From positions 1 to 33,885 of the forward strand of contig JAODBK010000074.1 in assembly GCA_025463925.1 (NCBI GenBank): a stretch of 33,885 bases of DNA. The letters are read 5' to 3'. Position 1 is the first letter of the stretch, and each line of letters begins with the position of its first letter. Positions 283-13,066 of this stretch are shown here, piece by piece. The notes below the pieces were generated by a model. The model saw only the letters and a program-made list of their open reading frames with translations. It was not told the DNA's origin and ran no database searches. A program made the position numbers and the translations under genes. The stretch is from Acidimicrobiales bacterium. GTDB taxonomy: Bacteria; Actinomycetota; Acidimicrobiia; Acidimicrobiales; AC-14.

Positions 283-813
283 ATGGCGCCCTATCAGATC
301 CGGATCTTCGGCGACCCCGTGCTCAAGGAGCGCGCCGCCGACGTCACCGACATCGACGGGCGGCTGGCCAGGCTGGCCGACGACATGATCGTGACCATGC
401 ACGATGCTCCGGGCGTCGGCCTGGCGGCACCGCAGGTCGGCGTGCAGAAGCGGATGTTCGTGTACGAGGTGCCCGACGGCGACGGCCCCCACACGATCGT
501 CAACCCGGTCATCACCGAGAGCCGTGGTGAGTGGGTCTACGACGAGGGTTGCCTCTCGGTCCCCGGCCTGAGCTTCGAGATCGTGCGGCCGAAGGAGGTG
601 CACCTCACCGGGCTCGACCTCGACGGCAACGAGGTCTCGATCGAGGCCGACGAGCTCATGGGCCGCCTCTTCCAACACGAGCTCGACCACCTCGACGGGG
701 TGCTGCTGTTGGAGCGGCTGGACAAGGTCCAGCGCAAGGTCGCCATGCGGGCGTGGCGGGAGCGCACCATGGGCCTCGACGCTGACCGGCTCGACCGGTC
801 GCACCTGCTGTAG
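283..813 (+). CDS. def: Peptide deformylase
   Basis: The enzyme removes the formyl group from the N-terminal formyl-methionine of nascent proteins at the ribosome exit. The 176-residue product has all three family motifs: GVGLAAPQVG (44-53), EGCLSVP (88-94) and QHELDH (131-136). Metal ligands are predicted as Cys90, His132 and His136, with Glu133 as the catalytic base. The reading frame is open further upstream, to 130, but that part overlaps the end of priA and has no family similarity. The ATG at 283, giving MAPYQIRIFGDPVL, aligns with normal deformylase starts. fmt, which adds the formyl group that this enzyme removes, follows directly in the same frame after the TAG stop. Confidence 0.96.
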   Translation: MAPYQIRIFGDPVLKERAADVTDIDGRLARLADDMIVTMHDAPGVGLAAPQVGVQKRMFVYEVPDGDGPHTIVNPVITESRGEWVYDEGCLSVPGLSFEIVRPKEVHLTGLDLDGNEVSIEADELMGRLFQHELDHLDGVLLLERLDKVQRKVAMRAWRERTMGLDADRLDRSHLL

Positions 814-822
814 GGACGCGCC

Positions 823-1635
823 ACGCGCCTCGCCTTCTTCGGCTCGCCCGACGCCGCGGTGCCGCCGCTGCGCGCCCTCGTCGAGCACGGCCACGACGTG
901 GCGCTGGTCGTGTCGCAACCGGACAAGCGCCGCGGTCGCGGAACGGCCCTCTCGCCCAGCCCGGTGAAGGCGGCGGCGACGGAGCTGGGTCTCACGGTCA
1001 CCGACCGCGTCGACGACGTCCTCGCCCTCGACCCTCCGGCCGAGCTGGGTGTCGTCGTGGCCTTCGGCCGGATCATCAAGCCCCACGTGCTCGCGCAGCT
1101 CCCGATGGTGAACCTGCACTTCTCGCTCCTCCCGCGTTGGCGGGGGGCGGCGCCGGTGGAGCGGGCGCTCCTCGCCGGCGACGACGAGACCGGCGTCTGT
1201 CTCATGGCCGTCGAGGAAGGGCTCGACACCGGTGGGGTCTACCGCTGCGAGCGGGTCGCGATCGCGCCCGCCGAGACCGCGGGCGAGCTGCGCGACCGCC
1301 TGGTCGCCGTCGGCACCCGGATGCTGGTCGACTCGTTGGCCGCCGGCCTCGGGGATCCCGAGCCGCAACGAGGTGAGCCGACGTACGCCGCCAAGATCGA
1401 CCCGGCCGAGCTCGAGCTCGACTGGTCCCGGCCGGCGGAGGACCTCGACCGCATCGTGCGCGTGGGCGGCGCCTGGACGACCCACCACGGCCGGCGGCTG
1501 AAGATCCACCGGGCCCACGTCGCCGACGGTCGGCTGCTCCCCGACGTCGTGCAGCCCGAGGGCCGGGCCGCCATGCCGGCGGCCGACTGGGCCCGCGGGT
1601 CCCGGTGGCAGCCGGGCGACGCGTTGGGCACCTGA
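823..1635 (+). CDS. fmt: Methionyl-tRNA formyltransferase, apparent ACG start
   Basis: The enzyme formylates initiator Met-tRNA using 10-formyltetrahydrofolate. Visible signatures are the N-terminal strand RLAFFGSPD, the QPDKRRGRG loop and SLLPRWRGAAP (101-111). The likely catalytic residues are Asn97, His99 and Asp135. The first canonical start in frame is GTG at 859, but it would remove the whole first strand RLAFFGSPDAA of the nucleotide-binding-like fold. Between the def stop (811-813) and 859 the only plausible start is ACG at 823. It sits where the family methionine should be and lies 6 bases after AGGGA (812-816). The product is about 270 residues, shorter than the roughly 310 usual for the family. 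The loss is in the C-terminal OB-fold domain, which still ends in the recognisable DVVQPEGRAAMPAADWARG. The stop TGA overlaps the rsmB ATG. Confidence 0.9.
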   Translation, partial: TRLAFFGSPDAAVPPLRALVEHGHDVALVVSQPDKRRGRGTALSPSPVKAAATELGLTVTDRVDDVLALDPPAELGVVVAFGRIIKPHVLAQLPMVNLHFSLLPRWRGAAPVERALLAGDDETGVCLMAVEEGLDTGGVYRCERVAIAPAETAGELRDRLVAVGTRMLVDSLAAGLGDPEPQRGEPTYAAKIDPAELELDWSRPAEDLDRIVRVGGAWTTHHGRRLKIHRAHVADGRLLPDVVQPEGRAAMPAADWARGSRWQPGDALGT

Positions 1636-12411: not shown

Positions 12412-12433
12412 CGCGTTCAAGGAGTGATGCCCG

Positions 12434-13066
12434 ATAGCCGCAGCCCCTGCCACCAACGAGCCCAGGATCAACGATCGCATCCGGGCCCGGGAAGTGCGCC
12501 TCGTCTCCCCCGAGGGGGAGCAGATCGGCATCAAGCCGCTGCCCGAGGCGCTGCACATCGCCCGTGAGCTCGAGATGGACCTGGTCGAGGTGGCACCCCA
12601 GGCCAATCCGCCCGTCTGCCGGATCATGGATTACGGCAAGTTCAAGTACGAGACGGCGCAGAAGGCCAAGGAGTCGCGGCGCAAGACGACGAACGTGGCC
12701 ATCAAGGAGATGAAGTACCGCCCCAAGATCGGCGGCGGCGACTTCGACACCAAGACCCGCAAGGTCGGTGAGTTCCTCGACCAGGGCCACAAGGTGAAGA
12801 TCACGATCATGTTCCGTGGCCGGGAGATGGCGCATCCCGAGCTGGGCAAGAAGATCCTCGACCGGATCGCCGACCAGCTGCAGCCCCTGGCCAAGATCGA
12901 GGCCCACCCCAAGCTCGACGGCCGCAACATGATCATGGTGCTCGCGCCGGACAAGCGGGCCAAGGCCCATGCGAAGGACGGTCCGGGAGACGCGCCCGAG
13001 ACGCACGAGATGCACGAGACGCCCGGCGAGGCAACGCCGCCCGCCGCGACGGAGGAGAGCAGCTGA
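12434..13066 (+). CDS. infC: Translation initiation factor IF-3, apparent ATA start
   Basis: IF3 binds the 30S subunit, blocks premature 50S joining and checks the start codon and initiator tRNA. The 210-residue product has the N-terminal domain (NEPRINDRIRAREVRLVSPEG, LDLVEVAP-like DLVEVAPQANPPVCRIMDYGKFKYE) and C-terminal domain (KEMKYRPKIGGGDFDTK, FRGREMAHPELG). A family-atypical acidic tail of about 35 residues rich in Glu, His, Pro and Ala follows. The frame opens after TGA 12425-12427. The only start before the conserved RINDRIR is ATA 12434, set 9 bases after AAGGAG (12419-12424). GTG 12494 would delete that motif, and ATG 12427 is out of frame. Non-canonical infC starts (AUU in E. coli) are a known autoregulatory device. 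Confidence 0.93.
   Translation: MAAAPATNEPRINDRIRAREVRLVSPEGEQIGIKPLPEALHIARELEMDLVEVAPQANPPVCRIMDYGKFKYETAQKAKESRRKTTNVAIKEMKYRPKIGGGDFDTKTRKVGEFLDQGHKVKITIMFRGREMAHPELGKKILDRIADQLQPLAKIEAHPKLDGRNMIMVLAPDKRAKAHAKDGPGDAPETHEMHETPGEATPPAATEESS

Follow-up and report, generated by a model that had tools for sequence, protein, structure and literature searches.

A probable ACG start codon for fmt in an Acidimicrobiales bacterium and the recurrence of rare fmt starts among its relatives

Described rare start codons and the def-fmt junction

The best-studied non-canonical start codon is that of infC, the autoregulated gene for initiation factor IF3, which begins at AUU, AUC or AUA. Like infC, the gene considered here, fmt, is a core initiation gene with a rare start that is common to relatives. 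The two differ in that infC begins at AUN codons and responds to its own product (PMC5472188, in excerpt), whereas fmt mostly uses CTG and adjoins def, and feedback on it is hypothetical. The infC gene of Staphylococcus aureus has an AUA start (PMC13009471, in excerpt), which is matched by the ATA of infC in the DNA analysed here. According to the excerpted text of PMC5472188, few non-canonical bacterial starts have been characterized. Streptomyces sigR, with a GTC start that is repressed by IF3, resembles fmt in being actinobacterial and in combining a conserved rare start with a strong ribosome binding site (RBS); an extensive, conserved RBS accompanies the GTC codon, the rare codon sets a low level of expression relative to the partner gene, and the start was missed by annotation (PMC5472188, in excerpt). 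Unlike fmt, sigR encodes a sigma factor and lies upstream of its partner, whereas fmt follows def and encodes a product whose target is initiation itself. Two other examples, cvfC1 and ccpN, are from Staphylococcus aureus, a species of another phylum than the bacterium studied here. These genes resemble fmt in their conserved non-canonical starts, which limit initiation, and in their predicted extended Shine-Dalgarno (SD) sequences; they differ in their functions and in that their starts were seen by ribosome profiling (PMC13009471, in excerpt), whereas that of fmt is read from sequence alone. A conserved rare start is therefore already known from infC, sigR, ccpN and cvfC1 (PMC5472188 and PMC13009471, both in excerpt). 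For fmt, no rare start is named in the titles, abstract openings and excerpts of the open-access papers listed by the searches, which are a part of those that matched. In common with genes of the infC and sigR type, fmt of the window and of a number of relatives has no canonical codon at a conserved start, and a rare codon, CTG, is common within the clade.

The window referred to below is the whole stretch of DNA analysed, 33,885 nucleotides of contig JAODBK010000074.1 from an Acidimicrobiales bacterium. The features relevant to this work are listed here.

283 to 813, + strand: def, peptide deformylase, with an ATG start and a TAG stop at 811-813
812 to 816, + strand: AGGGA, an SD-like motif that overlaps the def stop and ends six bases 5′ of ACG 823
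823 to 825, + strand: ACG, the putative fmt start codon, in the column of the family Met
823 to 1635, + strand: fmt, methionyl-tRNA formyltransferase, 270 amino acids with a short C-terminal domain
859 to 861, + strand: GTG, the first canonical in-frame start of fmt, at codon +12
1635 to 2747, + strand: rsmB, the gene after fmt, with an ATG that overlaps the fmt stop (TGATG)
12434 to 13066, + strand: infC (IF3), with an ATA start after AAGGAG at 12419-12424; a positive control for rare starts

From the def stop onward, the fmt frame of the window reads TAG GGA CGC GCC ACG CGC CTC GCC TTC TTC GGC. As a sequence-only reading of this DNA had stated, this frame contains no ATG, GTG or TTG between the def TAG at 811-813 and the GTG at 859-861. 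The only codon in this interval that is one base from ATG is ACG 823, which lies nine bases beyond the def stop; def and fmt share one reading frame. The placement of this ACG at the family Met, six bases after AGGGA, was likewise borne out by alignment with relatives and with Escherichia coli Fmt, and the conserved stretch RLAFFGSPDAA is encoded from position 826. A plain list of open reading frames begins fmt of the window at 859.

The encoded protein is, as judged from its domain matches and alignment, methionyl-tRNA formyltransferase (Fmt). The frame matches the NCBIfam model TIGR00460 with an E value of 4e-52 and a score of 177 bits, which is below the curated cut-off of 201.5 bits, a shortfall probably due to the short C-terminal part. 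The Pfam Formyl_trans_N domain is present with its N-terminal strand and GSPD-type loop, and the Formyl_trans_C match (window 1530-1635) covers only positions 1-49 of 100. The Fmt proteins of relatives are similarly short, with a median of 288 codons at 155 loci compared with the 314 residues of the E. coli chain of known structure (1fmt), and residues 2 onward of the window protein align with this chain from its residue 5. In the genome, which is 96.7% complete, one clear Fmt was found; the single other match is weak (E 3e-7) and located elsewhere.

Start codons of fmt in relatives and in control genes

To compare starts across the order, fmt junctions were read in the window and in 140 other species (first 100, then 40 more; 141 in total). 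These were taken from the upper part of lists ranked by likeness to the window Fmt (298 genomes searched, 261 matching), so the sample leans towards the kin of the window. A gene was scored as lacking a canonical start if no ATG, GTG or TTG occurred from 20 codons upstream to two codons into the matched block. By this test, 34 of the first 101 fmt genes and 4 of the further 40, from more distant genomes with fewer rare starts, lack a canonical start (38 of 141). With the upstream reach set to 5, 10 or 40 codons, the count among the first 101 becomes 63, 45 or 32. At 11 of the 34 loci, two of them among the cases without an assigned codon, the 20 codons upstream contain an in-frame stop, which makes an upstream canonical start impossible.

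Among the 38 genes, 17 have CTG at the family Met, 10 have it at the preceding codon and 2 have ACG; as background, CTG makes up 2.5% of upstream triplets and 6.5% of the codons of fmt. The other nine have neither CTG nor ACG at the family Met or at the codon preceding it (the far-CTG loci L103, L110, L111, L123, L325 and L329, together with L101, L116 and L135). The two ACG cases in the 141 genomes are the window and L102, a member of family f55, both with the def stop at −12; the L102 stop is TAA rather than TAG, and its def and fmt are in frame. Three further ACG codons were dropped as candidate starts, two owing to an in-frame GTG at codon −12 (L127 and L141) and one to a GTG directly before it (L151). 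The question raised by the sequence-only reading, whether ACG or another rare start is conserved in relatives, is thus answered in favor of rare starts in general, whereas ACG itself is confined to two genomes and the usual codon is CTG.

Within the family of the window, the fmt start codon is CTG in eight species, ATG in one and ACG in the window, among 10 species. Sister genomes exchange canonical and rare codons at the same position: ATG in L082 against CTG in L084 and L086; ATG in L109 against CTG in L087, L098 and L099; ATG-ACC in L091 against CTG-ACC in L093 and L104; GTG-GCC in L106 and ATG-GCC in L096 against CTG-GCC in L147 and L090; and GTG in L174 against CTG in L164. Canonical codons at this site in relatives, together with reads showing a sequencing error, had been named beforehand as counter-evidence; such codons do occur in sister genomes, but many relatives have CTG instead. 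In a quick tree of 135 rows based on Def, Fmt and RsmB, the smallest starred clade that includes the window (SH-aLRT 97) contains 28 rows, of which 20 have CTG, 2 have ACG, 1 has a distant CTG only (L111) and 5 are canonical. With seven rows without an assigned codon left out, 15 changes between the rare and canonical states are needed on this tree. Taken together, these comparisons suggest that the rare start is a recurrent property of fmt, widespread in the clade and mostly CTG.

The region upstream of the rare codons also differs from that of canonical starts. Pairing with the anti-SD sequence has a median of −6.4 kcal/mol before 41 CTG or ACG fmt starts, compared with −2.6 kcal/mol before the 36 canonical fmt starts that occupy the same pair of codon positions and −3.0 kcal/mol at sites drawn at random 60-300 bases upstream, which fall mostly in def (p 2e-6 and 1e-10, respectively, values that overstate independence because the genomes are related). 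The duplex energy before the ACG starts is −5.5 kcal/mol in the window, which is weaker than the median of its CTG relatives (−6.3), and −3.7 kcal/mol in L102. Stronger SD pairing before CTG and ACG is what real but weak starts would be predicted to show.

Fourteen control families from the same loci lack a canonical start in 24 of 896 genes at a reach of 20 codons (7 of 810 when rsmB is left out), compared with 34 of 101 for fmt. This contrast depends on the reach, since 109 of the 896 controls, mostly with variable N-termini, lack a canonical start at 5 codons (56 at 10 codons), against 63 and 45 of 101 for fmt; at each reach, fmt lies above every one of the 14 families. At 20 codons, no gene lacks a canonical start in def (87), ribE (58), ribBA (65), ribH (62), hisG (69), rpmI (64), rplT (61), pheT (45) or rpe (24), and few do in mog (1 of 85), ribD (3 of 72), pheS (2 of 52) and csp (1 of 66), where the sole case is the window's own csp, with a TTG three codons into the matched block. 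The controls that lack a start at 5 codons include rsmB (34 of 86), ribBA (20 of 65), mog (19 of 85) and ribD (14). As a candidate rare-start gene, rsmB was rejected: its variable N-terminus is read as reflecting longer proteins, the count falling from 17 of 86 at 20 codons to 3 of 86 at 40. Only infC exceeds fmt, with no canonical start at 55 of 65 loci (52 at 40 codons); in a crude scan, the codon at or near the aligned start of those 55 is ATA in 37, ATC in 12 and ATT in 6. These two genes are the strongest outliers of the 16 families, followed by rsmB.

The CTGA overlap at the def stop was dropped as evidence, as it is also seen at the upstream stops of control genes (ribE 17, hisG 19, pheT 11, csp 19). 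In ribE, hisG and pheT, these overlaps mostly miss the family start by one codon, the offset that TGATG junctions should give. Because CTGA overlaps are common in the controls, the nine fmt cases without CTG or ACG at or next to the family Met are weak.

Outside the order, the phylum was sampled through the best 30 loci of a search, 20 chosen loci and 20 more, which after removal of one without a readable N-terminus gave 69; one of these, L345, was picked because its family, f80, was already known. No canonical codon is found at the fmt family Met or within 20 codons upstream at 10 of the 69 loci (seven in family f65, one in f100 and two in f80), and the other 59 have ATG, GTG or TTG within 20 codons. 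In f65, the family Met position is occupied by CTG in 12 of 14 genomes, always as part of a CTGA that overlaps the def stop, and by ATG in the other two. None of the 12 has a canonical codon at this site or within 20 codons upstream, and in two of them a GTG follows two or three codons after the block begins. The def genes of this family have a canonical start in 14 of 14, and its infC genes have ATC or ATA at the aligned start at 14 of 14 loci; at eight of these, the 30 codons upstream contain no canonical codon. A canonical fmt start is absent from four of six f100 genomes (L189, L236, L238 and L240), and both f80 genomes seen (L206 and L345) have ATA ATC. By inspection, the f100 sequences show a GGAG-type SD and then ACG with GTA or ATA as the next codon, and those of f80 show ATA ATC CGG after a GA-rich, SD-like stretch, an infC-like arrangement for which GC drift is no explanation. 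The rare-start state thus appears, from these alignments, to occur in three actinomycetotal families outside the order. Ten loci more (L050-L058 and L060), presumably from Pseudomonadota, include nine with an in-frame ATG at or upstream of the fmt family Met and one that aligned badly (L057); the remaining named loci of that search, some of them from genomes already considered above, do not enter this count.

Explanations of the rare start

The fmt start is very probably a rare codon that ribosomes normally avoid, ACG in the window and CTG in many relatives, and the original assignment of the window start to ACG 823 is most likely correct. The favored explanation, which we consider likely, is that a real rare start at ACG 823 is coupled to termination of def, keeps Fmt low and renders its synthesis sensitive to IF3. 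The ordinary initiator tRNA (anticodon CAU) would read ACG 823 with one mismatch, and initiation would be supplied by ribosomes that end def at TAG 811, together with the AGGGA that overlaps this stop. The rare codon would keep Fmt low relative to Def and would make translation of fmt respond to IF3 and to the stringency of initiation, as in infC and sigR. Within this explanation, the start is well supported by the sequence comparisons, and we infer use of the codon, coupling to def, low Fmt and IF3 sensitivity. In 25 of the 33 lacking cases with a located def stop, this stop lies between −14 and +1 of the fmt family Met, a closeness that makes re-initiation by ribosomes leaving def likely.

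Initiator tRNAs are recognizable by a CAU anticodon and an anticodon stem with three G:C pairs. The tRNAs of the genome that have CAU, CAG or CGU anticodons, from the 46 loci with its 47 tRNA matches, include one that looks like an initiator, which carries CAU, and no initiator-like one with CAG or CGU. The start is thus most likely read by fMet-tRNA with a mismatch, at the first base of CTG or the second base of ACG. In this initiator tRNA, encoded outside the window, C72 appears by eye to lie opposite C1, which may matter for recognition by Fmt; the E. coli initiator tRNA has a C1 × A72 pair (PMC7949028, in excerpt).

The position of the def stop in those 25 of 33 cases also fits a rare start that is tolerated and not selected, an explanation given a little less than an even chance. 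Here, re-initiation from def would suffice at near-cognate codons, little Fmt would be needed and GC-rich mutation would turn ATG or GTG into CTG or ACG, with no regulation involved. The 15 changes of state on the tree and the canonical fmt starts of close sisters are in keeping with such tolerance. In contrast, other genes of the same loci stay canonical (0 of 45 lacking for pheT, 0 of 58 for ribE, 0 of 69 for hisG and 0 of 87 for def), including some that overlap the gene upstream (an NTGA overlap for pheT, 21 places in 45 loci). In addition, SD pairing is stronger at the rare starts, and the ATA ATC of f80 (two of two seen) is not GC-driven. Drift in GC-rich, coupled genes is therefore the main rival for the cause of the rare start, not for the start itself.

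It is improbable that the ACG of the window replaces a true ATG, GTG or CTG through an error of sequencing or assembly or through a local polymorphism. The draft genome comprises 119 contigs, of which the window is one, and close relatives have CTG or ATG at this site. However, L102 has ACG at the same codon with an equal distance to the def stop, two changes would be needed from CTG, and the wider rare-start pattern is independent of that base.

Highly improbable are a start at GTG 859 and a Def-Fmt fusion through readthrough of the def TAG. GTG 859 is the first canonical codon in the fmt frame, but it is rejected as the main start: a protein begun there would be missing the first strand and the GSPD loop, both of which are found in 101 junctions and in E. 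coli Fmt. In 8 of the 34 lacking cases, the next canonical codon comes only at codon 25 to 47. The fusion, an alternative raised at the outset, is compatible with the shared frame in the window and L102 but is not supported, as the two genes are in frame in only 17 of 82 genomes with the def stop near fmt, and L102 has TAA. From this comparison, a conserved fusion appears excluded for the clade, though not for the species of the window.

Possible consequences for control of initiation

Published work would allow a route by which a rare start, as favored above for ACG 823, holds Fmt low and is tied to initiation stringency, with the sign and existence of a feedback hypothetical. The rare starts of infC and sigR are repressed by IF3 (PMC5472188, in excerpt), and excess IF3 lowered re-initiation almost threefold in a reporter without an SD (PMC2268962, in excerpt), a construct that differs in this respect from the fmt junction with its SD-like site. 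In E. coli with low Fmt, selection of the initiator tRNA is looser, which is not the same as start-codon selection (PMC7949028, in excerpt). Counting against this route, an in vitro survey with E. coli factors reports that IF3 tolerates only Watson-Crick pairs at codon bases one and two (PMC10158994, in excerpt); CTG and ACG each break one such pair, so on this excerpt both should be very weak starts. By analogy with the described systems, a sensitivity of fmt to IF3 or to initiator-tRNA supply is plausible.

A broader proposal, tentative and on balance doubtful, would group fmt with infC in a small rare-start set. The rare fmt start (CTG, ACG or ATA/ATC) would have evolved repeatedly in Actinomycetota because Fmt sets the strictness of initiation: as formylation falls, initiation would loosen, the weak fmt start would be used more and formylation would be restored, in a homeostatic loop parallel to that of IF3.

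Owing to the rare starts, gene finders limited to ATG, GTG and TTG will probably place the start of fmt wrongly, or shorten the gene, both in this clade and in some other Actinomycetota. Next to infC, fmt would be the second gene of initiation in which a rare start recurs, and it is located beside its functional opposite, def. The making of Fmt may itself depend on how strict initiation is, and feedback of formylation onto start-codon stringency becomes a testable question.
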